DNA of 64,000 nt, taken from the NCBI RefSeq assembly GCF_000733475.1, contig NZ_JPFK01000003.1, positions 333,862 to 397,861 of the forward strand, given 5' to 3'. Shown piece after piece: positions 48,791 to 64,000 of this stretch. This DNA is from Mangrovimonas yunxiaonensis (GTDB lineage Bacteria; Bacteroidota; Bacteroidia; Flavobacteriales; Flavobacteriaceae). Within the stretch, counting starts at the first letter, position 1. Every line of letters begins with the position of its first letter. The position numbers and the translations under genes were made by a program. Under the pieces are notes generated by a model. The model had not been told where the DNA came from and searched no databases. It saw only the letters and a list, made by a program, of their open reading frames with translations.

Positions 48791-50908
48791 ATGGTTTCTT
48801 ACATTGTTAAACATACCCAACTCCCCGAGGCGGCGATACAAAACACCCTTACGTTATTAAACGAAGCCTGCACCATTCCGTTTATTTCGCGTTACCGCAA
48901 GGAGCGCACCGGCAATTTAGACGAGGTTCAAATAGCCGATATCGTAAAATTTAAAGCCCTATTTGAAACCCTTGAAAAGCGCAAGGAAACCATTTTAAAA
49001 GCCCTGGCCGACCAAGAGGTTTTAACCCCCGAGCTAGAGCGCAACATACAACAAGCCCAAGACCTCACCACATTAGAAGACCTTTACCTGCCGTATAAAA
49101 AAAGCCGAAAGACCAAAGCCGAGAAAGCCCGACAACAAGGGTTAGAGCCTTTAGCAAAAATTATCATGGCCCAAAATGCTTCAGACATAGAAGCGATTGC
49201 CTTTAAATATGTAAAAGGTGAGCTTACTTCTGTTGACGCTGCTCTGGAAGGTGCCCGACACATTATTGCCGAATGGCTTAACGAACGTTCCGATTTTAGG
49301 AACCACATGCGCTACCAGTTAGAACGGTTTGCGACCATAGCAACCAAAGTTGTAAAAAGTAAAACCGATGAGGCTGGCGCACAGAAATTCCGCGATTATT
49401 TTAATTGGAGTGAAGCCTTAAACCGCATCCCTTCGCACCGACTGCTAGCCATTTTACGTGCCGAAAATGAAGGCTTTATCCGGGTAAACATTGCCATTGA
49501 CGACCAGCGTGTTTTAGATTATATGGCACAGCGCAGCATACGCTCTAACAATGCGTGCTCTAAACACATTGAATTAGCCATTAAAGATGCCTACAAACGG
49601 TTGCTTTTTCCGTCGCTCTCTAACGAAGCCTTACAAAATGCCAAAGCAAAAGCCGACGATGCCGCCATTACCGTTTTTGCCAAAAACCTAAAACAACTCC
49701 TTTTGGGCGCTCCTTTGGGCGAGCAGCGTGTATTGGCCATCGATCCTGGGTTTAGAACAGGCTGCAAGGTGGTTTGTTTAGACGAGCAGGGCCAGTTAAA
49801 GCACAACGAAACCATATACCCCCATGCGCCAAAACACGACAGCAAAGGCGCCATGAAAAAGCTTAGCACCCTAGCCGAGGCCTATGGTATTACGGCTATT
49901 GCTATTGGTAACGGCACAGCCTCGCGGGAAACCGAAGCCTTAATTAAGCGCATTCGGTTTAAAAACGACCTGCAGGTTTTTGTTGTTAGCGAGGCTGGTG
50001 CCAGTATTTATTCGGCTTCTAAAATTGCCCGGGAAGAGTTTCCTAATTACGATGTTACCGTTCGTGGGGCAGTATCTATCGGGCGACGCTTACAGGATCC
50101 TTTAGCCGAATTGGTGAAAATTGACCCCAAGAGCATTGGCGTTGGACAATACCAGTACGATGTTGACCAAACCAAGCTTAAAAACGAACTGGATCGGGTG
50201 GTAGAAAGTTGCGTTAATGCCGTAGGCGTTAACCTAAATACCGCCAGTAAAAGCCTGTTAAGCTATGTTTCTGGAATTGGCGACAAGCTTGCCCAAAACA
50301 TTGTGGATTACCGCGCCAAACATGGTGCTTTTGCTTCTAGGAAAACCCTTTTAAACGTCCCCCGATTGGGGCAAAAAGCTTTTGAGCAAGGTGCGGCCTT
50401 TTTACGGATTAAAGGCGCGACCAACCCCTTAGACGATTCGGCGGTACACCCTGAAAGCTATGCCCTTGTTAAGCAAATGGCCTCTGACCTAAAAAAAACC
50501 GTACACGACCTTATAGGGCAACCCGAAACCATAAAACACATCCCGTTAAGTGCTTATTGCACCGCGGCTATTGGTTTGCCTACCTTAGAAGATATTGTAA
50601 CCGAATTGGAGAAACCCGGCTTAGACATACGAGAAAAAGCCAAGGTTTTTACGTTTAACCAAAACATAAGAACCATAGACGACCTTCGGGAAGGGCAACT
50701 CCTCCCCGGAATTGTAAACAACGTCACCAATTTTGGGGCTTTTGTAGATGTGGGCATTAAAGAAAGTGGCTTAATTCATATTTCCAATTTATCGGACGGT
50801 TATGTTAGCGATGTTAGTGCCCATGTTAGCCTGCACCAACAGGTTATTGTAAAAGTATTGGAAGTAGACGTTTCTAGAAAACGCATTCAATTAAAACTTC
50901 ACAACTAA
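48791..50908 (+). CDS. tex: Tex-family RNA-binding transcription accessory protein
   Basis: 705 residues. It has the Tex N-terminal domain (FISRYRKERTGNLDE near 37), the YqgF-like RNase H fold (LAIDPGFRTGCKVV near 317), helix-hairpin-helix motifs (about 495-560) and a C-terminal S1 domain (about 635-705). It binds nucleic acid and influences transcription; its precise role is unsettled. Its stop codon overlaps the SMR gene start by one base. Confidence 0.95.
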   Translation: MVSYIVKHTQLPEAAIQNTLTLLNEACTIPFISRYRKERTGNLDEVQIADIVKFKALFETLEKRKETILKALADQEVLTPELERNIQQAQDLTTLEDLYLPYKKSRKTKAEKARQQGLEPLAKIIMAQNASDIEAIAFKYVKGELTSVDAALEGARHIIAEWLNERSDFRNHMRYQLERFATIATKVVKSKTDEAGAQKFRDYFNWSEALNRIPSHRLLAILRAENEGFIRVNIAIDDQRVLDYMAQRSIRSNNACSKHIELAIKDAYKRLLFPSLSNEALQNAKAKADDAAITVFAKNLKQLLLGAPLGEQRVLAIDPGFRTGCKVVCLDEQGQLKHNETIYPHAPKHDSKGAMKKLSTLAEAYGITAIAIGNGTASRETEALIKRIRFKNDLQVFVVSEAGASIYSASKIAREEFPNYDVTVRGAVSIGRRLQDPLAELVKIDPKSIGVGQYQYDVDQTKLKNELDRVVESCVNAVGVNLNTASKSLLSYVSGIGDKLAQNIVDYRAKHGAFASRKTLLNVPRLGQKAFEQGAAFLRIKGATNPLDDSAVHPESYALVKQMASDLKKTVHDLIGQPETIKHIPLSAYCTAAIGLPTLEDIVTELEKPGLDIREKAKVFTFNQNIRTIDDLREGQLLPGIVNNVTNFGAFVDVGIKESGLIHISNLSDGYVSDVSAHVSLHQQVIVKVLEVDVSRKRIQLKLHN

Positions 50909-53993: not shown

Positions 53994-54223
53994 ACTATCG
54001 TTTGTTGTCGTTTAATATCTTTTATAGGTCGCTCTGCCCAATGGGGCACTTCTTTCAGAAAAGCGTCTTCTGCCTTTCTGGGCTATTACTGGCTTTACAG
54101 GGGTTTTGACTGTTAAAAAATAGACCTACACTTGCTTAAGAATCGCTAAACAACTTCAGCTTAACTCATTAAAAACACTCATTTTCAAAAATTTACTTCT
54201 TGTTTTTGTACGGCTTTTATTTG

Positions 54224-54231
54224 TATCTTTC
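54224..54231 (+). promoter_or_regulatory. Candidate -7 element of the recombinase gene
   Basis: TATCTTTC lies 5 bp before the ATG with a TTG 21 bp upstream (54200-54202). If used, the message would be nearly leaderless. The same TATCTTTC occurs inside the array repeats. Confidence 0.4.
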
Positions 54232-54236
54232 CTTAT

Positions 54237-55442
54237 ATGAAACCTGTTATTACCTTATCGCCATTAACCCATAAAAATGCGTCGCAGATTGCTATTGGCT
54301 TTGATTTTGATGTTGCTGTAAAGGCCGATGTTAAGTTGTTTCCGGAGGTCTATTGGTCGTCTACCCACAAAACGTTTTATGTGGCCAGAACGGGCGGTAC
54401 CATGCATCGTTTGTTTAAGCATTTTAGGGCGAAGGGGTACTATGTAGACTACCAGGCCATGTTGCCCGACAGGCCCAACATTAAGCCTACCTCTAGCCGT
54501 AAAGCCAAGGCGCCCATGACCAAAAAGGCCTTTTATGAGGCCTTGCCACAAGCGCATAAAACGATGTTGCAGGGGTATGTTTCTTATTTGCGCGGCAAAC
54601 GGTTAAGCGAACAAACGGTAAGTACTTATGGGTATTTTGTTTTGCGTTTTATTTATTTTAACCGCGATTGTACGCCTGGGCAGTGGCGTAATACCCATAT
54701 AGATTTGTTTATGAGTGCGGTGATGTACCAGGAGCACTATAGCATAAGCAGCCATAGGCAATGTGTTAGTGCGTTAAAGTATTTGACAGCATTTTGCGAG
54801 ATGGCCGATTTTGATGCTACGGAATACAAGCGTCCTAAGAAGGATAAGAAATTGCCCCGAGTGGTATCGAAAGATGCTGTTTTACGTTTAATACAGGTAT
54901 GTAAAAACCTTAAACACCGGGTTATTATTGGGCTGTTATATTCTGCTGGGTTACGGGTTGGTGAATTGCTAAGCTTAACTCCTTCCGATTTGGATTTTGA
55001 GCGGATGCTTATTTTTGTAAAGTGTGGCAAGGGTCGCAAGGATAGGATGGTGCCCATGGCCGAGGTTATGGTGCCTATGCTTAACAATTACTTGCATACG
55101 TACCAGCCTAAGGCGTTTTTAATTGAAGGGCGTTTGGGGGCGGATTACAATGCCAGTTCGGTACGCCACATGCTAAAGCGGTGCTGCAAGCTTGCCCAAA
55201 TTAGCCCTAGTATTTCGCCACATGCCCTACGCCACAGTTATGCTACCCATATGTTGGAAAACGGGGTGGGTTTGCGCCACATTCAAACGTTATTGGGGCA
55301 TAGCAAACCCGAAACCACCATGATTTACACCCATGTTGCGCAGGAAGATTTAATGCGGATTAGCAATCCGTTGGACGTTGTGGTTAAGGACATTATGGAC
55401 GGTGTTGGGCGTGACAAAAAAGTCACGATATCCCGCCTATAA
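54237..55442 (+). CDS. Tyrosine recombinase adjacent to the cassette array (candidate cassette integrase)
   Basis: 401 residues. About 90 N-terminal residues form an extra module (possible arm-type DNA-binding or family-specific domain). A SAM-like core-binding domain spans about 100-195 and the catalytic domain about 205-380. Catalytic residues: Arg240 (SAGLRVGEL), Lys in CGKGRKDR (263-270), His329-x-x-Arg332 (HALRHSYATHML), His355 (LGHSKPETT), Tyr364 (MIYTH). The spacing between GKGRKDR and HALRH has no room for the extra segment that marks integron IntI, so it is XerC/D-like, although TTMIYTHV and a late NPLD recall IntI C-termini (TTMIYTHV...SPLD). Its stop lies 36 bp before the first cassette boundary. 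Confidence 0.9.
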   Translation: MKPVITLSPLTHKNASQIAIGFDFDVAVKADVKLFPEVYWSSTHKTFYVARTGGTMHRLFKHFRAKGYYVDYQAMLPDRPNIKPTSSRKAKAPMTKKAFYEALPQAHKTMLQGYVSYLRGKRLSEQTVSTYGYFVLRFIYFNRDCTPGQWRNTHIDLFMSAVMYQEHYSISSHRQCVSALKYLTAFCEMADFDATEYKRPKKDKKLPRVVSKDAVLRLIQVCKNLKHRVIIGLLYSAGLRVGELLSLTPSDLDFERMLIFVKCGKGRKDRMVPMAEVMVPMLNNYLHTYQPKAFLIEGRLGADYNASSVRHMLKRCCKLAQISPSISPHALRHSYATHMLENGVGLRHIQTLLGHSKPETTMIYTHVAQEDLMRISNPLDVVVKDIMDGVGRDKKVTISRL

Positions 55443-55484
55443 TATAAATTAATGTGTATATTAGTACGCATATAACGAGTTGCC
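55443..55484 (+). other. attI-like primary recombination site candidate
   Basis: The 36 bp after the recombinase stop codon end in GTTGCC (55479-55484), where the first cassette starts. TATAACGAGTTGCC resembles the right ends of array repeats (TTATACGAGACCGTTGCC). There is no repeat arm on its left, as expected for attI rather than attC. Assignment is by position and analogy to integrons. Confidence 0.5.
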
Positions 55485-55686
55485 AGCAATGGCGTCTAAA
55501 AAATCGCGGAAGCGATTTTGAGCATCCTTACGCGGACAAAAAAAAGCGGATTAAAAACAAAACTAAAAGAACTTCATAACTATTCGCAAGCAGTACGCAA
55601 GCAGTACGCTGAAAAAGAATAAAAGGACTTCCAAGCTTTGCGCTGACATCACTCAGACTAAAAACTTACGGATATAAACCACAGCA
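55480..55686 (+). other. Cassette 1 body: gene-less recurrent cassette D, copy 1
   Basis: No ORF of useful length. It carries the hairpin AAATCGC-GGAA-GCGATTT at 55501-55518 near its start and the string CAGTACGCTGAAAAAGAATA near the middle. It recurs as cassettes 7, 10 and 12. Opening arm GTTGCC pairs with GGCAAC at 55687. The frame that is open in copy 2 is broken here. Confidence 0.65.
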
Positions 55687-55817
55687 GGCAACAACGGCTA
55701 TAGTTCATTGCTGCGTCTTTTTTTGCCTGATATTCCAGGATATTTGTTATCTTTCGTCCACGGCGGAAAAACCTTAACCCTTTTCCCCCGCAACAAACCA
55801 TAGCCACACCCGTTGGC
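55687..55817 (+). repeat. attC-like site 1 (family A)
   Basis: GGCAAC-AAC-GGCTATAGTTCATTGC on the left and GCAACAAACCATAGCC-ACACCC-GTTGGC on the right. Arms of 16 bp pair imperfectly. The loop holds TATCTTTC (55748-55755), 88 bp before the next ORF, with a TTTG 22 bp upstream. Confidence 0.8.
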
Positions 55818-55842
55818 AACAAGCTAAAAAAAAACTAACTAA

Positions 55843-57495
55843 ATGAAAATATCCAGAATTAAAATAGAAAATTTTAGGTCCATCAAATCGACCGAATTCA
55901 CAACGGATAACTTCAATATCGTTGTCGGACAAAATAACTGTGGAAAAACAAATTTCTTCGAAGCAATTCAATTTTTCTTCAACGGAGCTGGTCGTGGTGG
56001 ATTATCAAACGATTTGAAATTTAAACGACAATCTGATTTAGAAATTTTAGTTGAATTGGAATTTTCGGGTGCACAAGATGGTGCAGAAAGAATGCGTAAT
56101 GAAGCTAATAAAACAAAAATACTAAACATATTGGGAGAATCTGATACAGTAACAGTTTCCCGTTCAAGTGTAAATGTAAAAAAACGTAAAGTATTTGTTA
56201 ACGGAGAAGAAGTAAATCCAGGAACAGGATTTGACCCAGCCTTAAATGATTTCTTACCAAAATTTGAATACATAAATACTAAACAATATTATGATTCTGT
56301 TGCAAAGTATTCTAAAATAACGCCAATCGGTATTATGCTTTCAGGTGTTTTATCTGCTATTTTAGAATCAAATGAACAATATCAAGATTTTCAGCAAAGA
56401 TTTACAGATTTATTTGAGGGAGAAGAATCAGAAATTAAAACTCAATTCGATTTAGTTGGTGGTAAAGTAAAAGTTAATCTTCAAAAGCAGTTTCCAGATA
56501 CTTCGAAAGTCAACTTTGAAGTTACAGCGCCTGTATTTGACGATTTACTTAAAAACTTTGAAACTACAATTGATGATGGAATAGAAACAACCGCAGAAGA
56601 AAAAGGAGATGGAATGCAAAGAGCTCTAATGCTTGCGATTATTCAAACTTATGCGGAATTTCGAAAAGAAAATGAAGACCAAGGTAAGTCATTCTTATTC
56701 TTTATTGACGAGGCAGAATTACATCTTCATCCAACAGCTCAAAGAAACTTAAAGAATGTATTATATGAACTTTCAGAATCTACCGACCAAGTTTTTATAA
56801 ATACACATTCATCTGTATTTGTTGCAGATAATTATCCAAATCAAAAAATATTTAAAGCCGAAAAAAACGAGGGAGAAACGGAATTGGAATCGGCAGATGA
56901 TTTTACAAAACCGTACATAGTATTTGAACTTTTAGGCGGAAGTCCGTCAGATTTATTGTTGCCAAGAAACTTTCTTATCGTAGAAGGGTTAAGTGAATTT
57001 GAGTTTTTAACACGAGTAATAAGACGATTTTATTCGGACAGACCAATAATTCAGATAATTAAAGCAAACGGAGATATTGACCAAGCAGAAAGAACAATTA
57101 ATGCAATTGAAAAAGCGTTCACGCCTTTAAATTCAAGTATTTACAGAGATAAACAAATTATCTTAATTGACTTGCCAAGTGAACAAACTCAAGGTGGTGT
57201 AACTGACTTTCTTCAAAGAAATCCGAGTTTAAATGCGAACAACCAATTTTTTCAAATACCAAATCGAGATTTAGAGCAATATTATCCAAATCAACCAGAT
57301 GAAACTTACGGAAATTGGAGAAAAACGCAAGCTGAATTGGATGCAGTAAATGCAGCAGGTAATAAGTCATTTACGGGAAAAAAGAAAAGACAATTAGCAA
57401 AATTTGTAGGAGAAAATATTACTCAATTACAATTCGAACAGGAAATGCCAATAATATTTCAGGCATTAGAACGGAGTTGGGAATTAGCATTTTGA
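55843..57495 (+). CDS. Cassette 2: OLD-family AAA ATPase/TOPRIM nuclease
   Basis: 550 residues. The ABC-type ATPase has Walker A GQNNCGKT (29-36), Walker B FLFFIDE (284-290) and an H-loop-like THSS (321-324). A C-terminal TOPRIM-like domain starts at LIVEGLSEFEF (378-388, Glu381); the later acidic motif reads LIDLPSEQ (441-448), with only one clear Asp where OLD enzymes usually have DxD. Such nucleases (OLD, GajA-like) nick or cut DNA and several protect against phage. No UvrD-like partner is adjacent. Opening arm GTTGGCAAC (55812) matches GTTGCCAAC at the repeat. Confidence 0.85.
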   Translation: MKISRIKIENFRSIKSTEFTTDNFNIVVGQNNCGKTNFFEAIQFFFNGAGRGGLSNDLKFKRQSDLEILVELEFSGAQDGAERMRNEANKTKILNILGESDTVTVSRSSVNVKKRKVFVNGEEVNPGTGFDPALNDFLPKFEYINTKQYYDSVAKYSKITPIGIMLSGVLSAILESNEQYQDFQQRFTDLFEGEESEIKTQFDLVGGKVKVNLQKQFPDTSKVNFEVTAPVFDDLLKNFETTIDDGIETTAEEKGDGMQRALMLAIIQTYAEFRKENEDQGKSFLFFIDEAELHLHPTAQRNLKNVLYELSESTDQVFINTHSSVFVADNYPNQKIFKAEKNEGETELESADDFTKPYIVFELLGGSPSDLLLPRNFLIVEGLSEFEFLTRVIRRFYSDRPIIQIIKANGDIDQAERTINAIEKAFTPLNSSIYRDKQIILIDLPSEQTQGGVTDFLQRNPSLNANNQFFQIPNRDLEQYYPNQPDETYGNWRKTQAELDAVNAAGNKSFTGKKKRQLAKFVGENITQLQFEQEMPIIFQALERSWELAF

Positions 57496-57504
57496 AAAAA
57501 GCCA

Positions 57505-57641
57505 GTTGCCAACAACGTATAACAACAATTGCGGCTCTGTTTCCTGCGGACACAACCGCGCAAGCACAAAAGTCGGGAATTTTAGCTATCTTAGTTTTTA
57601 ATCAATCCGCAACTGATTGTTATACAAGAACGTTACCTTGC
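57505..57641 (+). repeat. attC-like site 2 (family B, divergent)
   Basis: GTTGCCAAC-AAC-GTATAACAACAATTGCGG on the left; CCGCAACTGATTGTTATAC-AAGAAC-GTTACCTTGC on the right. GTATAACA and TGTTATAC pair. TATCTTAG (57587-57594) sits in the loop 69 bp before the next ORF. Confidence 0.75.
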
Positions 57642-57663
57642 ATTTGACCAAATCACAAACTAA

Positions 57664-58155
57664 ATGAATTCTGAAATCAAAATACCCTTGAATAAATTTA
57701 AAATATCCTTGCTAACTTTTGGTTCAATTCTGTTTGTTATTGCTGGCTATTTTATGTTGTGGAATTTTATCGGAATTATTGCAATCATTTTTTTTGGAGC
57801 CACTGGAATTTACGGATTAACAAAATTATTTGACTCAAAAACTGGATTGAAAATTGACTCAAGCGGAATTACGGACAATACAAACGCAACTAGCATCGGA
57901 CTGATTAAATGGAAAGATATTTATCAAATTAGAAGTGAGCAAGTAGCTTCCGAGAAATTCATAATGATTGACTTAATTGACCCAGAAAAATATTTGGACA
58001 AAGTAAAAAACGGACTTAAAAAAAGGTTAATGAAAACAAATATGAGAATGTACGGAACACCAATTTCAATAACCTCTCGAACTTTGAAATACAATTTTTC
58101 GGAACTTGAAAAAATATTACGAACTGAATTTGAAAAAAATAAAAACGCAAGGTAA
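57664..58155 (+). CDS. Cassette 3: STM3941-like membrane protein
   Basis: 163 residues. Two membrane helices (about 14-32 and 34-53) precede a beta-rich, PH-like domain (GLKIDSSGITDNT, IGLIKWKDIYQI), as in STM3941-family proteins. Function unknown. The stop codon TAA lies inside the attC left arm GCAAGGTAAC, so the last codons belong to the recombination site. Opening arm GTTACCTTGC is perfectly complementary over 10 bp. Confidence 0.75.
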   Translation: MNSEIKIPLNKFKISLLTFGSILFVIAGYFMLWNFIGIIAIIFFGATGIYGLTKLFDSKTGLKIDSSGITDNTNATSIGLIKWKDIYQIRSEQVASEKFIMIDLIDPEKYLDKVKNGLKKRLMKTNMRMYGTPISITSRTLKYNFSELEKILRTEFEKNKNAR

Positions 58156-58282
58156 CAACGGCTATAGTTCATTGCTACGGATTTTCTGCCGAAAATCCTC
58201 GCACTTTTGCTATCTTTGGTTCACGGCGGAAAATCCTCGCGGATTTTCACGCAACGAAACCATAGCCAAAACCGTTGGCAAA
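58147..58282 (+). repeat. attC-like site 3 (family A)
   Basis: GCAAGGTAAC-AAC-GGCTATAGTTCATTGC and GCAACGAAACCATAGCC-AAAACC-GTTGGCAAA. The loop contains two pairs of AAAATCC/GGATTTT inverted repeats and TATCTTTG (58211-58218), an exact TAnnTTTG match 75 bp before the next ORF. Confidence 0.8.
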
Positions 58283-58292
58283 CAGTTGAAAA

Positions 58293-58826
58293 ATGACTTA
58301 TAAGGAATCTAAAAGAATTGATTTAATACTTTCCGAATTTCTTAAAGAAGATAGAATTGAAATATCATCTTCTATAAACGAGGTTAATTTTGTGAAAAAA
58401 GGTCGTGTACATAAATTAACCGAAACGGAATTAAAGAAACTTTTACACCTAATAAAAAAAGAACAAACTGCAATCGGAATTGAATTAATAACTGGACATG
58501 ATATTATTCATGTAGAGTTCAAAACAATTTCTGACTTTTTAGCCGATGGTGGATTTGAAAAAATAATACGTAAAAGACTAACTAATAAAACTATTAAAAT
58601 TACAACATTCGTATTATCAGTTTTTACCTTTTTAATATTATTTATCAAAAACATTATCATTGACCCAATATGGGCAACCAAAACCGAGAAAATAATTCAA
58701 GAACCTTACCAACAACATAAGCGAATGGAAAAGCAAGAAATAAAATCAACGGAGCAAATGAAACCCAACATTTCCAAGAAAAAGGATTCATCCACCCATT
58801 TTCAAGTAAATACTCCAAAGAAATGA
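58293..58826 (+). CDS. Cassette 4: hypothetical single-pass membrane protein
   Basis: 177 residues. The N-terminal 100 are soluble and charged, one hydrophobic helix follows (about 101-120, TTFVLSVFTFLILFIKNIII), then a Lys/Gln-rich tail. No family recognised. Opening arm GTTGGCAAA is complementary to TTTGCCAAC at 58866. Confidence 0.7.
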   Translation: MTYKESKRIDLILSEFLKEDRIEISSSINEVNFVKKGRVHKLTETELKKLLHLIKKEQTAIGIELITGHDIIHVEFKTISDFLADGGFEKIIRKRLTNKTIKITTFVLSVFTFLILFIKNIIIDPIWATKTEKIIQEPYQQHKRMEKQEIKSTEQMKPNISKKKDSSTHFQVNTPKK

Positions 58827-58865
58827 AAAAAGCGTCTTTAATTTTTTCCTTCAAAACAAAACCGA

Positions 58866-59000
58866 TTTGCCAACAATGGCTATAATTAATTGCTACTCTT
58901 TGCAACACCTTAATTACTGTTTCTATACATCAGCTATTACTAATACGAAAAAACAATCCTTGTTTAATCGCAACTAATCATAGCCTAAGCCGTTAGCTTT
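58866..59000 (+). repeat. attC-like site 4 (family C-related)
   Basis: TTTGCCAAC-AAT-GGCTATAATTAATTGC and GCAACTAATCATAGCC-TAAGCC-GTTAGCTTT. Arms pair over 16 bp with A/C mismatches at two positions. The loop sequence differs from the other members. Confidence 0.78.
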
Positions 59001-59014
59001 CATTTGACCAAAAA

Positions 59015-59683
59015 ATGGATATTGATTTATTAAATAGACTAAGAAAAGAAACTGAAAGCGGAATTCAGAAAGTTTTTGATGAATTAGAAAAACAATCTGT
59101 TGAATTTGGCACAGACGAATTTAATGGAAACAACAGAGAGGAATTCATAATTAAATTTGACGGTTTCGGAATTGATTTGAACGAAAATGGAGAGAAAGAA
59201 ATTATTCGTGTCAAATTGGGAATTTATCTTGAGGATAAAGAAAATATATGGGTTAACTCTCTTGAGCCGATTGGAGACTATTTAACACTTTATGATTTAA
59301 AAGGGGAATTTATCGATGAATTCATAACGATAAACAAAAGAGGAATTGAATTTGAGATTGACTTTTGGATTGAAACCCTTAATAAGACTGTGCCAAAACG
59401 TTATTTCAGAAGAAATATTCCTGAATACACTTTAGTCTCTTATATAAATCATTCTATTTTTCTTTTTCAAGGCAAAGATTTTGACGGAGTTTTTGTTTTC
59501 ATAAAAAGGTGTCTCGATTATTTGGAGACTTCAGAAAACAATGAACGAATTGAAACCGAATATCTTGACAAAGTGAATTCATATCTTGAAACAATCTTTT
59601 ACCATTTGAAAAATAATGATTTAGTAAATAAAGAAAAGATTAAAAAATACGATATTGTAAAACGAATAAAAACGAAAAGCTAA
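59015..59683 (+). CDS. Cassette 5: hypothetical protein
   Basis: 222 residues, soluble, acidic, mixed alpha/beta. No motif or family is recognised. The stop codon is inside the attC left arm AAAGCTAAC (59676-59684). Opening arm GTTAGCTTT is its exact complement over 9 bp. Confidence 0.7.
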   Translation: MDIDLLNRLRKETESGIQKVFDELEKQSVEFGTDEFNGNNREEFIIKFDGFGIDLNENGEKEIIRVKLGIYLEDKENIWVNSLEPIGDYLTLYDLKGEFIDEFITINKRGIEFEIDFWIETLNKTVPKRYFRRNIPEYTLVSYINHSIFLFQGKDFDGVFVFIKRCLDYLETSENNERIETEYLDKVNSYLETIFYHLKNNDLVNKEKIKKYDIVKRIKTKS

Positions 59684-59809
59684 CAATGGCTATAAGTAAT
59701 TGCTTGTTCTCGCCTACTTCTGAAAATCCTCGCGGATTTTCAGTTTGGTATGTACTTGCAAAGTTAACCGCTAAACCACGCAACTACTCATAGCCGAGAC
59801 CGTTGGCAG
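59676..59809 (+). repeat. attC-like site 5 (family C)
   Basis: AAAGCTAAC-AAT-GGCTATAAGTAATTGC and GCAACTACTCATAGCC-GAGACC-GTTGGCAG. The loop has the hairpin CTGAAAATCC-TCGC-GGATTTTCAG. Nearly identical to site 9. Confidence 0.8.
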
Positions 59810-59844
59810 TCATTTAAAACCACTCTAAAGAACAAAAAACAGAT

Positions 59845-60531
59845 ATGAACGATTTATTTATTTCAATCGAATACAACAATCGAGAATTTGATGGAATTGA
59901 GGAGTTCAAATCAAGTTTAGACGAAAACTACCATCATCAAATTAGACCTAAATGGATTCCTGCTTGTTCAGAAGGTGCAGAATTTTGGATGACCGTTTTT
60001 GTGAATACAGGAATTGCGGACTTTATTAAAGGCGCAATTGCTGGTGGTTTAGTCTGGGATTTAATAAAATTTGGAGGAAAAGAATATGTTTTTTCACCAC
60101 TTTATAAAGCTTTAGAAAAACTGAATAAAGACAATTCAAAAAATTGGGGCGGACTGAAAGTGTTGAAATATAAACTTCAATTTGATGATTGTGAAATACA
60201 CGTTGGAGGAGTTAATAAAAACTTCACATCTATTTTCTCTACTGTATTCAATGAAATAGCAAAGAGAAAACCTGAATTTGAAAAAGAAATCGGACAGGAA
60301 GTAATTAAAATCGAATTACCAATAGAATTTATGGAACATTTTGAAAATGTGAACGAACAATTTTCGCTTGATATTTATAACGAAGATTATTCTATTAAAG
60401 CTTTCAAAAATTTATGGAGAGTAACTTTTTCAACTGAATTTCCGATTATGATTTACAGCTTTCCCGAAAAGAAATTATTTGAACCAAAAGAAATGTCAGA
60501 CAAATTAAAAACGCCTGCCAACAATGTATAA
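59845..60531 (+). CDS. Cassette 6: hypothetical protein
   Basis: 228 residues. A short amphipathic or weakly hydrophobic segment (about 51-72, NTGIADFIKGAIAGGLVW) may associate with a membrane. No family recognised. The last residues (PANNV) and the stop TAA are encoded by the attC repeat. Opening arm GTTGGCAG pairs with CTGCCAAC at 60515. Confidence 0.7.
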   Translation: MNDLFISIEYNNREFDGIEEFKSSLDENYHHQIRPKWIPACSEGAEFWMTVFVNTGIADFIKGAIAGGLVWDLIKFGGKEYVFSPLYKALEKLNKDNSKNWGGLKVLKYKLQFDDCEIHVGGVNKNFTSIFSTVFNEIAKRKPEFEKEIGQEVIKIELPIEFMEHFENVNEQFSLDIYNEDYSIKAFKNLWRVTFSTEFPIMIYSFPEKKLFEPKEMSDKLKTPANNV

Positions 60532-60647
60532 CCGCAATTACGGCGGATTCGACTACGTCCGAATCCACTCGGAATTGCTAACGTCTGTGCTAAACCGAAA
60601 ATTATTAACTTTAAATCCGTAACTGACGGTTATACGAGATCGTTGGC
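60515..60647 (+). repeat. attC-like site 6 (family B)
   Basis: CTGCCAAC-AAT-GTATAACCGCAATTACGG and CCGTAACTGACGGTTATAC-GAGATC-GTTGGC. GTATAACCG and CGGTTATAC pair fully, with an inner GGATTCG/CGAATCC hairpin. Confidence 0.8.
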
Positions 60648-60890
60648 AACAATGGTGCTAAAAAATCGCGGAAGCGATTTTGAGCCTCTTTACGCGGACA
60701 AAAAAACGGATATAAAAACGCAAAACTGCTCGGATTTTAAGCAGGGTGGATTCAAAACAAAATTAAAAGAACTTTATAGCTGCTCGCAAGCAAAGCGCAA
60801 ACAGTACGCTGAAAAAGAATAAAAGAACTTCCAAACTTTACGCTGACAACACTCAGGCTCAAAAAAAACTTACGGATTAAAACCACAGTA
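60643..60890 (+). other. Cassette 7 body: gene-less cassette D, copy 2
   Basis: Contains the conserved AAATCGC-GGAA-GCGATTT hairpin and about 40 bp more than copies 1 and 4. Opening arm GTTGGC pairs with GCCAAC (60891). Relative to copies 1 and 4 (GTTGCC/GGCAAC) both arms changed together. A small ORF is possible in this copy only. Confidence 0.65.
60652..60822 (+). CDS. Possible 56-residue ORF in cassette D copy 2
   Basis: ATG at 60652, TAA at 60820-60822; the product starts MVLKNRGSDFEPLYADKKTD and is lysine-rich. The other three copies of this cassette carry indels that break the frame, which argues against coding function. It is listed because it is the only intact version. Confidence 0.2.
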   Translation: MVLKNRGSDFEPLYADKKTDIKTQNCSDFKQGGFKTKLKELYSCSQAKRKQYAEKE

Positions 60891-61025
60891 GCCAACAACG
60901 GCTATGGTTCATTGCTGCGTCATTTTTTGCCCGATATTCCGGGATATTTGTTATCTTTCGTCCACGGCGGAAAAACCTTAACCCTTTTCCATCGCAACAA
61001 ACCATAGCCAAACACGTTGTAACAC
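60891..61025 (+). repeat. attC-like site 7 (family A)
   Basis: GCCAAC-AAC-GGCTATGGTTCATTGC and GCAACAAACCATAGCC-AAACAC-GTTGTAACAC. TATCTTTC (60952-60959) lies 83 bp before the next ORF. Confidence 0.8.
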
Positions 61026-61041
61026 ATTAGAAGCAAAAACT

Positions 61042-61515
61042 GTGGAAGAATTTCAAATAAGATACAATAAGACATCTGAATTAATTGAAAAAGTAGTAGA
61101 TATGTATTATAACGGAAATTCTTGCGCTTGTGAATATCCGAGATTTATACAAATTGTTGGAATTAATTGTGTTGACTACGGAGAATCCTTTAAGACGTGG
61201 GAAACAACATTATTAATTGATAAAGCAAAAAAACATTTTGAAACTGAAACTCTGGAAAACGGACCTGAATGTTCAAATGAAAAGTGGACTTGCAAAAAGT
61301 GTAAATCTGAATATAATTATGGTTGGTCGGATTTTAGCATCGCAGTGGAAAGAGAAGTATTATTACCAATAAATATAAAGGCAACAGAAAAAGGAAAAAA
61401 AACTATTAAACCGATTCCTCTTTACGCAGGACTTTATGGACATAGTTATCCTTCAAAAAAGGAAATTGAAAGCGTTACATTTGACAGTTTTGAAAAATAT
61501 ATAATGGAAAAATAA
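61042..61515 (+). CDS. Cassette 8: hypothetical protein with CxxC motif
   Basis: 157 residues from a GTG start. Cysteines at NSCACEYP (about 28-31) and WTCKKCKSEY (about 86-89) could form a zinc site. No family recognised. Opening arm GTTGTAACAC and closing arm GTGTTACAAC match over 10 bp. Confidence 0.65.
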   Translation: MEEFQIRYNKTSELIEKVVDMYYNGNSCACEYPRFIQIVGINCVDYGESFKTWETTLLIDKAKKHFETETLENGPECSNEKWTCKKCKSEYNYGWSDFSIAVEREVLLPINIKATEKGKKTIKPIPLYAGLYGHSYPSKKEIESVTFDSFEKYIMEK

Positions 61516-61516
61516 C

Positions 61517-61655
61517 GTGTTACAACAATGTATAACCGCAATTACGGCGGATTCGACTACGTCCGAATCCACTCGGAATTGCTAACGTCAGTGCTTAACC
61601 GAAAATTAGTAACTTTAATCCCGTAACTGACGGTTATACGAAACCGTTGCCAATA
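61517..61655 (+). repeat. attC-like site 8 (family B)
   Basis: GTGTTACAAC-AAT-GTATAACCGCAATTACGG and CCGTAACTGACGGTTATAC-GAAACC-GTTGCCAATA. Loop element TAACTTTA (61610-61617), 54 bp before the next ORF. Confidence 0.8.
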
Positions 61656-61671
61656 ATTAAAACCAACCCAT

Positions 61672-62406
61672 ATGAAAACAACAATCAAATCAATCCTAAC
61701 CGCTATTTTATTTATTGCAACATTTAATTCTTACGCACAAAAAACAGGAGAATTAATCAAACTTAAAACTTATAATAAAGTAATTAAAGCTGAATTTTTG
61801 ACTGAATCAAATGATAGTTTAATTAAGTTTCTTGCACCAAATATTATATACAGAATTAACAAGATTAATGGTGATTCAATACAATTAAAGGCATTAAATT
61901 TCAAAAAAGGTTCTGAAAAAGGAAATTACTATAATGATAAAATTTATTATGTAAGTAAAAGTGACTTTGACCAAAGTTATGAAGAGTACATTCCTGATGA
62001 TAAACTATCTGTAGGACTTTTAACATTACCATTTAAAGCGAGACCACAAGATGATTTTTCATTTGACACCGAATTTAATTTAAGTACAACTCTAAATTGG
62101 AATTTCGCTAAAATCTATAACTCAAAAGTAAATCTGCAAGCAGGTGCAGGAATTGGTAGTGTTAATTTGAATTCAAGTAATGCTAGTGGAATTGAAGATG
62201 GAAAAGCCCAAGATGTTGCTACTCTAAATTTCTTTGGAGGACTAATGTTAGAATACAAAAAAGTTCAAGCAGGTTTTTATGTAGGTGTTGACCAAATTAA
62301 TAATCAAAGTGAATATAATTGGATGCATAATGGTAATTTATGGTTTGGCTTTGGTATTGGATTTAACGTATTTAAAATTTCCTTGGGAGAAAAAGATAAT
62401 CAATAA
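61672..62406 (+). CDS. Cassette 9: secreted beta-rich (possible outer-membrane) protein
   Basis: 244 residues with a signal peptide (about 1-22, ends SYAQ). The C-terminal half shows alternating strands rich in aromatic and glycine residues (NLQAGAGIGSVNLN, LWFGFGIGFNVFKISLG) like a small barrel. No family is assigned firmly. Opening arm GTTGCCAATA and closing TATTGGCAAC match over 10 bp. Confidence 0.68.
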   Translation: MKTTIKSILTAILFIATFNSYAQKTGELIKLKTYNKVIKAEFLTESNDSLIKFLAPNIIYRINKINGDSIQLKALNFKKGSEKGNYYNDKIYYVSKSDFDQSYEEYIPDDKLSVGLLTLPFKARPQDDFSFDTEFNLSTTLNWNFAKIYNSKVNLQAGAGIGSVNLNSSNASGIEDGKAQDVATLNFFGGLMLEYKKVQAGFYVGVDQINNQSEYNWMHNGNLWFGFGIGFNVFKISLGEKDNQ

Positions 62407-62407
62407 C

Positions 62408-62540
62408 TATTGGCAACAATGGCTATAAGTAATTGCTTGTTCTCGCCTACTTCTGAAAATCCTCGCGGATTTTCAGCTTCGGGTATACTTGCAAAGTTAA
62501 GTGCTAAACCACGCAACTACTCATAGCCGAGACCGTTGGC
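62408..62540 (+). repeat. attC-like site 9 (family C)
   Basis: TATTGGCAAC-AAT-GGCTATAAGTAATTGC and GCAACTACTCATAGCC-GAGACC-GTTGGC. Same loop hairpin as site 5, with TATACTTG at 62484-62491. Confidence 0.8.
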
Positions 62541-62781
62541 AACAATGGTGCTAAAAAATCGCGGAAGCGATTTAAGCCTCTTTACGCGGACAAAAAAACG
62601 GATATAAAAACGCAAAACTGCTCGGATTTTAAGCAGGGTGGATTCAAAACAAAATTAAAAGAACTTTATAGCTGCTCGCAAGCAAAGCGCAAACAGTACG
62701 CTGAAAAAGAATAAAAGAACTTCCAAACTTTACGCTGACAACACTCAGGCTCAAAAAAACTTACGGATTAAAACCACAGTA
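62536..62781 (+). other. Cassette 10 body: gene-less cassette D, copy 3
   Basis: Nearly identical to copy 2, with a one-base deletion after the conserved hairpin that closes the frame seen there. Opening GTTGGC pairs with GCCAAC (62782). Confidence 0.65.
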
Positions 62782-62914
62782 GCCAACAACGGCTATGGTT
62801 CATTGCTTCGTCATTTTTTGCCCGATATTCCGGGATATTTGTTATCTTTCGTCCACGGCGGAAAAAACTTAACCTTTTTCCCCCGCAACAAACCATAGCC
62901 AAACCGTTGTACGC
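62782..62914 (+). repeat. attC-like site 10 (family A)
   Basis: GCCAAC-AAC-GGCTATGGTTCATTGC and GCAACAAACCATAGCC-AAACC-GTTGTACGC (5-nt right spacer). TATCTTTC (62843-62850), 87 bp before the next ORF. Confidence 0.8.
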
Positions 62915-62936
62915 AAGCTTGAAAAAACAGAACTAA

Positions 62937-63428
62937 TTGAGAATTTTAGATTGGATAAAGAACAGAGAAGTTAAATCGGAATTTGAAAAAGCATTTTCTG
63001 ACTTAAAGAGAATGGGAGAAATTGAACCTAGTGCAAAAAGAACTTATGAATTACTTCGCGAATTGGACTTTGACACTTCTGACTCGCAATCTGAATTGTT
63101 AATTTCGGAATTTAACAAGATTCAATATCAATCGAACACAAATAGTTTCTTTTACTTCTATTTTCCGATTGTAACGCACATATTACATTACAAACCAAAA
63201 TACGAGAAAGATATTTTAGGATATTTAATCGGACCAAATTTTGCGAATGGCGACACAGAAACGAAAGACTTGATTCCATTAATCAAAAACGCAATGGAAT
63301 TCAAACTAACTGAAAATAAAAATTATCTGACCAAAGAAAGTAAAAGCTGGATTCTGAATGAATTACCAAAAATGGAAAAAGAAGTTGAACGAGAAGTACA
63401 AAAATGTTGGAAAGAACTGAACGAATAA
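62937..63428 (+). CDS. Cassette 11: hypothetical helical protein
   Basis: 163 residues from a TTG start, predicted mostly helical, no family recognised. Opening arm GTTGTACGC and closing GCGTACAAC match over 9 bp. Confidence 0.65.
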   Translation: MRILDWIKNREVKSEFEKAFSDLKRMGEIEPSAKRTYELLRELDFDTSDSQSELLISEFNKIQYQSNTNSFFYFYFPIVTHILHYKPKYEKDILGYLIGPNFANGDTETKDLIPLIKNAMEFKLTENKNYLTKESKSWILNELPKMEKEVEREVQKCWKELNE

Positions 63429-63435
63429 AAAGCCA

Positions 63436-63569
63436 GCGTACAACAATGTATAACCGCAATTACGGCGGATTCGACTGCGTCCGAATCCACTCGGAATTGC
63501 TAACGCCAGTTCTTAACCGAAAAACATTATCTTTAAATCCGTAACTGACGGTTATACGAGACCGTTGCC
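63436..63569 (+). repeat. attC-like site 11 (family B)
   Basis: GCGTACAAC-AAT-GTATAACCGCAATTACGG and CCGTAACTGACGGTTATAC-GAGACC-GTTGCC. TATCTTTA at 63528-63535 in the loop. Confidence 0.8.
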
Positions 63570-63771
63570 AGCAATGGTGGTAAAAAAATCGCGGAAGCGA
63601 TTTTGAGCTACTTTACGCGGACAAAAAAAAGCGGATTAAAAACAAAACTAAAAGAACTTCTTAGCTATTCGCAATCAGAACGCAAGCAGTACGCTGAAAA
63701 AGAATAAAAGGACTTCCAAACGTTGCGCTGACATCACTCAGACTCAAAACTTACGGATATAAACCACAGCA
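63565..63771 (+). other. Cassette 12 body: gene-less cassette D, copy 4
   Basis: Closely matches copy 1 (both lack the extra segment of copies 2 and 3). Opening GTTGCC pairs with GGCAAC (63772). The AAATCGC-GGAA-GCGATTT hairpin is conserved. Confidence 0.65.
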
Positions 63772-63906
63772 GGCAACAACGGCTATAGTTCATTGCTACG
63801 TCATTTTTTGCCTGATATTCCGGGATATTTGTTATCTTTCGTCCACGGCGGAAAAACCTTAACCCTTTTCCCCCGCAACGAAACCATAGCCAAAGCCGTT
63901 GTAGCC
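63772..63906 (+). repeat. attC-like site 12 (family A)
   Basis: GGCAAC-AAC-GGCTATAGTTCATTGC and GCAACGAAACCATAGCC-AAAGCC-GTTGTAGCC. TATCTTTC at 63833-63840. Confidence 0.8.
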
Positions 63907-63928
63907 AATTTGAAAAATGGCATCGTCC

Positions 63929-64000
63929 TGAAATAGGTTGACTAAAAAATCATTTAAAATTAGTCAACATATGGAACAACAATCAAAATCATCCTGCCAA
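63929..64000 (+). mobile_element. Probable left end of an IS3-like insertion in cassette 13 (partial)
   Basis: After only 30 bp of cassette 13, including a likely start ATGGCATCGTCC, the sequence changes to TGAAATAGGTTGACTA, which resembles IS-terminal repeats I know from flavobacteria. An ATG at 63971 starts MEQQSKSSCQ, plausible as an IS transposase or helper N-terminus. The element runs off the window. Assignment is from memory and short. Confidence 0.4.

Follow-up and report, generated by a model that had tools for sequence, protein, structure and literature searches.

A likely integron-like cassette array beside a tyrosine recombinase without the IntI-specific domain in Mangrovimonas yunxiaonensis

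Can a row of gene cassettes be assembled by a tyrosine recombinase that lacks the domain particular to integron integrases? The question is raised by the end of a 64,000-nucleotide stretch of the Mangrovimonas yunxiaonensis genome (assembly GCF_000733475.1, contig NZ_JPFK01000003.1, positions 333,862 to 397,861, forward strand), hereafter the window. A first-pass annotation of the window, made from its letters alone, had read the units that follow a tyrosine recombinase gene there as an integron-like cassette array beside a recombinase that is not a canonical IntI. Our analysis leads to a similar view, i.e., this is very probably a cassette array beside a recombinase that lacks the IntI domain and would insert circular one-gene cassettes at an attI-like site by a cut at G/TT. 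The system would, in short, likely work like an integron.

The array in the window contains 12 hairpin sites (55690-63900), all on the + strand, each running from AAC to GTT. The description of these repeats as palindromes between AAC and GTT stood, and their length, first put at about 130 bp, was measured at 123-126 bp. The sites delimit 12 complete units, each of which opens with GTT and closes with AAC and its hairpin; a thirteenth unit starts and then stops at the end of the window, which is also the end of the contig (C3). The 13 one-direction units, one-gene or gene-less, are thereby confirmed: 8 of the 12 complete units carry one forward open reading frame (ORF) of more than 150 amino acids (aa), and the other 4 have no ORF of at least 60 aa in the array direction. 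As in integrons, then, each single-gene cassette carries an imperfect palindrome of its own. The recombinase ORF (54237-55442) stops 36 bp short of the first GTT (55479), exactly as had been annotated. What the annotation understated was the extent of the array, since matching stretches are also found on contigs C4 (16.4 kb) and C5 (first 33 kb) of this 2.67 Mb genome, giving 59 sites (12 + 19 + 15 + 13) over about 58 kb on a single strand. The three pieces (C3 end, C4, and C5) presumably join, and their order is likewise presumed.

When one genome per species was scanned, 54 relatives of the recombinase turned up, and our core set for comparison is 45 loci (L026-L070) from Flavobacteriaceae or near, judging by their titles; L026 is from a named strain of Mangrovimonas spongiae and L037 from one of Paucihalobacter ruber. 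Directly after the recombinase gene, the pattern A[TA]ATAA[CT]NNGTT is present in 41 of 46 loci, with ATATAAC invariant in the 39 that are comparable. When 13 close locus pairs were aligned, mean identity was 0.87 before the GTT versus 0.34 from three bases into the first unit. As far as the sequence tells, an attI-like site adjoins the recombinase gene and cassettes have been inserted there. Loci inspected from other branches have a different sequence at the attI position, and a GTT-initial unit is readable in most of them. Within the attI-like site, TATATTNG resembles the -7 promoter element of Bacteroidetes and is a candidate promoter.

In L026-L070, as well as in two chromosomes available as one contig, the array begins at the 3' end of the recombinase gene and runs in the same direction. 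Sixteen further loci show both this co-directional layout (7 loci: L153, L157, L161, L165-L168) and one in which the array lies on the opposite strand beside the 5' end of the recombinase gene (8 loci: L154, L155, L156, L158, L160, L162, L163, L164); the short stretch available for L159 contains no site. Both layouts have the array pointing away from the recombinase, and the layout is not strictly tied to protein length (272-376 aa for the divergent form, 305 to about 405 aa for the co-directional one). Among 401 units, 84 have no ORF of at least 60 aa, and in 304 of the remaining 317 the longest ORF follows the array direction.

Elsewhere in the Mangrovimonas genome, two cassettes lie behind a second attI-like sequence, GTGTATACTAGTACTCATACAACTA|GTT (C5:95162-96801, or L109:5163-6802), with no family recombinase among the surrounding ORFs listed and a different tyrosine recombinase 1.7 kb away. 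Two solitary single cassettes (L111:5820-6710 and L113:4783-5462) have matching ends of their own and no attI pattern before them, and are possibly insertions at secondary sites.

We built a covariance model from 55 hairpin sites of the Mangrovimonas genome, so that these sites match by construction; matches in other genomes are independent. Across 904 kb of recombinase loci and own-array contigs, the model returned 236 matches in 58 loci (two of them, 44-bp fragments in L065, were dropped before the counts that follow). Because 236 of 236 matches fall on one strand, the recombinase (+) strand, the hairpin sites are beyond chance. The 45 core loci contain 175 sites downstream of the recombinase (239 kb) and none upstream (431 kb); sites are present in 39 of these loci, and 5 of the other 6 have less than 200 bp of downstream sequence. 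The inner stems are 97.9% paired over 150 matches, with covariation of 0.595 versus 0.120 when shuffled, in an alignment that was itself fitted to the structure, and both inner and outer stems covary while their sequence stays free. The two one-contig chromosomes hold 89 and 96 sites, in a single row within the 80 kb examined that starts beside the recombinase. No match was obtained from Rfam for window positions 54000-64000 at E <= 1, from BLASTN of two window hairpins against plasmids, or from BLASTN of one window hairpin against phages. The same arrays also contain longer matching sites of about 180-204 bp, a size class of their own (L066, L067, L030, and others).

A hint of how such units might be handled lies in their ends. 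In 191 units (164 distinct), the seven bases after the GTT were compared with the seven before the unit's own AAC, and were complementary at 6.26 of 7 positions, versus 2.81 with other units from that genome and 2.73 across linear junctions; none of 2000 permutations gave an own-end sum as high. The two sides of a linear junction do not pair, their value being equal to the control, and the own-end stem forms only in a circle. The result was repeated in the 89- and 96-site chromosomes (6.50 and 6.12 versus 2.44 and 2.86). Pairing reaches position 14 and is weaker at position 10 (69%). At position 11 there is an A at the start in 162 and a C at the end in 143 of the 164 distinct units, which is a mismatch on the top strand and a G.T pair on the bottom strand. 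In 283 distinct outer stems we counted 2512 Watson-Crick pairs, 299 A.C mismatches (G.T when read from the bottom strand), 23 mismatches of the reverse type, and 279 other mismatches; with position 11 excluded, these mismatch counts are 62, 23, and 245. The predicted fold has an energy of -28.4 kcal/mol for the bottom strand as a circle, -22.8 for the bottom strand when linear, and -24.0 for the top strand as a circle, and the bottom strand is the lower in energy as a circle in 113 of 120 cases. The pairing and the strand bias would fit a folded bottom-strand substrate in a circle, short of proof.

The published definition of an integron includes an additional domain specific to IntI, the I2 or patch III region (PMC9668308). 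Does the window recombinase have it? The 401-aa protein consists of an N-terminal domain of about 75 residues, a SAM-like domain, and a catalytic domain with residues R240, K265, H329, R332, H355, and Y364. These residues do not vary in a 52-row alignment, and 41 of the 42 rows of the family-spacing comparison keep them. The predicted structure of the protein (mean predicted local distance difference test score 85.9, predicted template modeling score 0.57) is confident in the N-terminal domain, with a beta-beta-alpha-beta-beta-alpha-beta fold that is matched by no Pfam family. The nearest solved structures, both by sequence and by fold, are XerA enzymes; IntI4 matched too, its alignment splitting in two pieces around the part that is found in IntI only. 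The spacing from the first catalytic Arg to the HxxR motif is 89-90 in 42/42 family members, 131 in 18/18 IntI, and 94-99 in 14 Xer proteins, and a 42-residue IntI-specific insert is present in all 18 IntI and in none of the 42 family members. The IntI proteins came from 20 Bacteroidota loci, two of which had no usable ORF. The Xer rows were chosen by score level, and two of the 14 were checked against NCBIfam, one being over the XerD cut-off and the other having XerC as its best match, below the cut-off. The integron integrase model TIGR02249, whose cut-off is 265 bits, scored 180 on the window protein and 180-216 across the 7 members tested, and with the insert lacking as well, the claim that the recombinase is not a canonical IntI holds. 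With the XerC model (cut-off 335) the window protein scored 181 bits, and with the XerD model (cut-off 330) 175 bits. The genome also encodes Xer proteins distinct from it; one of them exceeds the XerD cut-off, and the best match of another is XerC.

In a 74-row tree the family is one clade (90/92), and in a broad quick tree IntI fell in an unresolved group with family members. A careful 68-row tree again made the family one clade (98/95), with IntI plus two viral recombinases as its neighbour (96/89) and the family, IntI, and viral rows together set apart from Xer and others (100/100), which leaves the family outside the Xer clade. Because the roots are midpoints and the outgroups few, "sister of IntI" is valid for these rows only; on them, I2 would have arisen within the IntI branch. 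The two viral recombinases, from IMG/VR contigs (L187, L188), lack the IntI insert and branch at the IntI base. The hairpin-site model had no match in their loci, where other kinds of cassette site were not searched for.

Classical attC core boxes read RYYYAAC and GTTRRRY. In our sample of 300 distinct units, GTTRRRY is found at 27 starts, with about 29 expected from composition, and RYYYAAC at 35 ends; GTT/AAC alone is kept, which bears out the first-pass annotation. Because the IntI domain is absent and the GTTRRRY core is no commoner than chance, the system is not an integron by the published definition, and on these two defining features the present array appears to be a variant that stands beside known integrons. 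It is like them in having a recombinase beside attI, one-gene cassettes mostly in a single orientation, and hairpin sites with GTT/AAC at the exchange point and the bottom strand favoured, and its long arrays (the 89 and 96 sites above) are like those of chromosomal super-integrons. It also differs from integrons in the stem of about 14 positions with its conserved A.C (bottom G.T), in a hairpin of mostly 120-128 bp, in the extra N-terminal domain that the recombinase often carries, and in shared cassettes that often have another hairpin in another host. A further likeness is that unit ends are complementary within the cassette, as in classical attC, for which PMC2727003 gives 9-11 consecutive complementary nucleotides.

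XerA, XerC, and XerD are alike in catalytic fold and sequence (XerA best), but the present family is a separate clade in a genome that keeps its own Xer proteins, and dif is a single site whereas the present hairpins lie in cassettes. CALIN (the IntegronFinder term for clusters of attC sites lacking an integrase) are matched by site-bearing stretches and genomes without a recognised recombinase, although the sites here are of a different family. An integron is called reverse when its array lies at the 3' side of the integrase gene and is co-directional with it. The window form has the same layout, but its family lacks the IntI-specific domain and shows both layouts among relatives. Reverse-orientation integrons are mentioned for Spirochaetota in PMC9668308.

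Do the units move? Between copies of repeated cassettes, identity rises at the left-hand GTT (216 pairs, of which genome G113 supplies 167) and falls past the next GTT on the right (233 pairs), and the first three bases after the GTT are less alike (0.69-0.78) than those following. Within one genome, the copies mostly retain their hairpin. Their outer stems differ by compensatory changes: 385 cells have both sides changed and paired, 30 have both sides changed and not both paired, and 115 have one side changed. From 31 cross-genome rows we examined 11 pairs (9 distinct cassettes) whose full-length bodies are at least 86.9% identical, leaving out same-genome copies (L037/L090, L032/L089), reciprocal rows, partial matches, and rows at 75-85%. 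The bodies in these pairs are 87-98% identical between genomes, and their neighbours are different. For instance, over 1699 nt the body of the unit 2 ATPase cassette matches a cassette at attI in Salegentibacter holothuriorum with 86.9% identity. As a calibration in three genome pairs in all, a conserved gene of the window (48791-50908) is 71% identical in G159, 68% in G113, and 67% in the Salegentibacter genome, the last over part of the gene. Because one and the same cassette can be met in another genus among different neighbours, capture and shuffling of genes by the recombinase, in the manner of integrons, is likely. The hairpins of the 11 pairs, compared over their first 40 bases, are near-identical in 2 and intermediate (0.73-0.82) in 3.

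In the G113 array (L105-L108), copies of one unit start with GTTGGG, GTTGCC, or GTTCTC and are matched at the other end; both arms change together.

The first-pass annotation had suggested looking for the repeats in other Flavobacteriaceae, and a whole-genome scan at E <= 1e-6, with up to 14 candidates scored per genome, found sites in 215 of 249 genomes of that family. In a wider Bacteroidota set, sites were present in 65 of 247 genomes, 48 of the 65 being outside Flavobacteriaceae. The recombinase was found at E <= 1e-60 in 97 of the 249 Flavobacteriaceae genomes, and 93 of these have sites. True IntI over its curated cut-off is present in 46 of 148 Bacteroidota genomes, none of the 46 from Flavobacteriaceae.

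Several observations weigh against our reading of the locus. Four of the 97 recombinase-bearing genomes show no site, 122 of the 152 Flavobacteriaceae genomes without a close recombinase do have sites, and 11 of the 46 genomes with true IntI also hold these hairpin sites elsewhere. Away from the array stretches, the Mangrovimonas genome itself has at least 8 site matches, with 150 scored of 1265 candidates. Only two genomes supply the compensatory cells of the outer stems, G113 with 369 (13 distinct cases) and G000 with 16 (4 distinct), and the pairing of a unit's own ends tells us that a circle or hairpin is important without pointing to the enzyme behind it. Lastly, in 6 of the 11 cross-genome pairs the hairpins are 0.36-0.52 alike, the same as random sites (0.42, standard deviation 0.15). 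With six hairpins at background, a cassette does not seem to travel with its site in every case, unlike in the textbook model, and either exchange may also take place at AAC or hairpins may be homogenised host by host. Across genomes, sites and recombinase are only weakly linked, and it is their local association on which the argument rests. A scatter of repeats unrelated to any recombinase had been named beforehand as an outcome that would speak against an integron-like array, and the strays and the recombinase-negative genomes do partly show this. Of the sampled genomes, 22 of 28 hand-picked site-bearing genomes (24 negative for the close recombinase, 4 outside that screen) hold a more distant family member at E <= 1e-60 in a profile search, and 6 have Xer-level matches alone.

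In the Flagellimonas marinaquae plasmid NZ_CP092416.1, typed mobilizable, a short family recombinase occurs with two opposite-strand hairpin matches (L182:3905-6813; E 3e-18 and 2e-4) that flank a dihydrofolate-reductase-family gene, and erm(F) lies between the hairpin matches and the recombinase gene. In the Rufibacter tibetensis plasmid NZ_CP012644.1 (L183:7250-10080), a recombinase with 31% identity precedes a row of small genes in the same direction, with repeats of about 60 bp and GTT/AAC ends between them, several of these repeats having a GGCCGACGGCC core.

How would such a system operate? We suppose that a unit circularises and that the folded bottom strand of its site is the substrate, with GTT as the point where that strand only is exchanged, in the way of classical integrons, and with replication resolving the junction. 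Insertion at the attI-like site beside the recombinase gene would make the array grow outward, and the cassettes would be read from a promoter at attI, for which TATATTNG is the candidate. That shared cassettes often have differing hairpins might be explained by exchange at a second point, AAC, or by conversion from hairpin to hairpin. Support for the integron-like interpretation of the first-pass annotation comes from the order of recombinase, attI, and array with its polarity, from the GTT boundaries with their breaks in identity, from complementary ends within units and a stem that favours the bottom strand, and from cassettes shared across genera in new contexts, all of these being properties of sequence.

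Other explanations need to be weighed. The recombinase might act on double-stranded core sites in the manner of Xer, the hairpin being incidental or, e.g., a transcription terminator. Its nearest solved relatives are the XerA enzymes, the family lacks the I2 helix that in IntI docks extrahelical bases (PMC7790495), and the first three bases after the GTT, more variable between copies than those following, might belong to a six-base exchanged overlap. Stems that covary while their sequence is free, and mismatches biased toward one strand, speak against such a mode, and a terminator has no need of an outer stem that matches the far end of the unit; we regard this explanation as unlikely. It is very improbable that the units spread by homologous recombination and duplication between repeats with the recombinase as a bystander. 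Repeated gene-less units with near-identical hairpins in one array would suit that scenario, as would the many genomes that have sites and no close recombinase, but it is at odds with sites that are one-sided and point away from the recombinase in both layouts, with boundaries at GTT, with self-complementary unit ends, and with single cassettes that come first in other genomes.

Could the locus, rather, be a true integron whose IntI has merely diverged, of the same family and with the same attC? The overall logic is alike, the family neighbours IntI in the careful tree, where the two and the viral rows are separated from Xer and others at 100/100, and some members bear the NCBI name "site-specific tyrosine recombinase/integron integrase". 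That name belongs to model NF040815, however, which the XerD-like protein of the Mangrovimonas genome passes too. The insert that is absent from every family member and present in every Bacteroidota IntI compared, the TIGR02249 scores that are all below the cut-off, the occurrence of GTTRRRY at chance level, and the lack of any hairpin site around true IntI (20 loci of about 3.7 kb and 7 of 14-20 kb searched) make a merely diverged IntI rather improbable.

The cassette array beside a recombinase lacking the IntI domain bears on how integrons came about. In integron work, acquisition of the I2 helix is regarded as what enabled a recombinase of double-stranded DNA to act on folded single strands (PMC7790495). 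Because a neighbouring family without I2 adjoins hairpin cassette arrays, of up to 96 sites, this idea becomes directly testable. A separate I2-free lineage of the same trade has a fair chance of being what these loci represent. On a broader proposal we are evenly divided, namely that there is a second, phylum-wide lineage of cassette capture, sister to integrons, which would move hairpin cassettes without I2 and in which gene body and hairpin would be independently shuffled modules. If this is true, cassette capture from folded DNA predates I2 or arose twice. The present sites would add a large cassette pool to Bacteroidota. The paper on IntegronFinder 2.0 (PMC9024848) names one complete integron in Bacteroidetes proper, in Salinibacter, whereas 215 of 249 Flavobacteriaceae genomes have the sites described here. 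In the parts of the open-licence literature covered, with most subscription papers and preprints outside that scope, we found no such Flavobacteriaceae arrays and no cassette system lacking the IntI domain.

The cargo was sampled in two arrays as 116 cassette ORFs (41 from the Mangrovimonas genome, 75 from G068), one per unit, at least 70 aa long and in the array direction, with two ORFs at slice edges dropped. At E <= 1e-5, 55 Pfam families match these ORFs, and among the 25 families listed 22 match one ORF. The Pfam matches listed include ParE toxin (two), an MmeI type IIG enzyme, MutH, KAP NTPase, Imm7, GNAT, and AAA, and the 25 of 150 PADLOC families listed include type IIG and type II restriction enzymes, PifA, OLD, GajA, and AriA. 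Cassette ORFs match restriction, abortive-infection-like, toxin, and immunity families, these names being family matches and not functions. The features of the window locus are given in Table 1.

Table 1. Coordinates of the recombinase gene, attI-like site, units, and hairpin sites in the window.
Feature	Position	Strand	Remarks
Tyrosine recombinase, 401 aa	54237..55442	+	
attI-like site TATATT-N7-ATATAAC-NN-GTT	55457..55481	+	Unit 1 starts at GTT 55479; pattern in 41/46 loci; identity drop after GTT
Unit 1 including hairpin	55479..55811	+	Gene-less; family of 330-374 bp gene-less units repeated in own array
Hairpin site 1, AAC to GTT	55690..55814	+	Site search and covariance model
Unit 2 gene, AAA ATPase	55843..57495	+	AAA_15; weak RecF- and retron-Eco8-effector-like matches
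Hairpin site 2	57511..57634	+	
Unit 3 gene, STM3941 family protein	57664..58155	+	
Hairpin site 3	58154..58276	+	
Unit 4 gene, hypothetical	58293..58826	+	
Hairpin site 4	58872..58994	+	
Unit 5 gene, hypothetical	59015..59683	+	
Hairpin site 5	59682..59804	+	
Unit 6 gene, hypothetical	59845..60531	+	Stop codon within site 6
Hairpin site 6	60520..60644	+	
Unit 7 body	60642..60893	+	Gene-less, unit-1 family
Hairpin site 7	60894..61018	+	
Unit 8 gene, hypothetical	61042..61515	+	GTG start
Hairpin site 8	61524..61648	+	
Unit 9 gene, hypothetical	61672..62406	+	N-terminus signal-peptide-like by eye
Hairpin site 9	62415..62537	+	
Unit 10 body	62535..62784	+	Gene-less, unit-1 family
Hairpin site 10	62785..62908	+	
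Unit 11 gene, hypothetical	62937..63428	+	TTG start in ORF list
Hairpin site 11	63442..63566	+	
Unit 12 body	63564..63774	+	Gene-less, unit-1 family
Hairpin site 12	63775..63900	+	
Unit 13 start	63898..64000	+	Cut by contig end; array presumably resumes on C4 and C5

The last stretch of the window (63925-64000) contains AATAGGTTGACTAAAA, and a stretch with the same sequence is found directly after the recombinase in L056 (11083 onward). By eye it may be the end of an insertion sequence, and is a possible cause of the assembly breaks.

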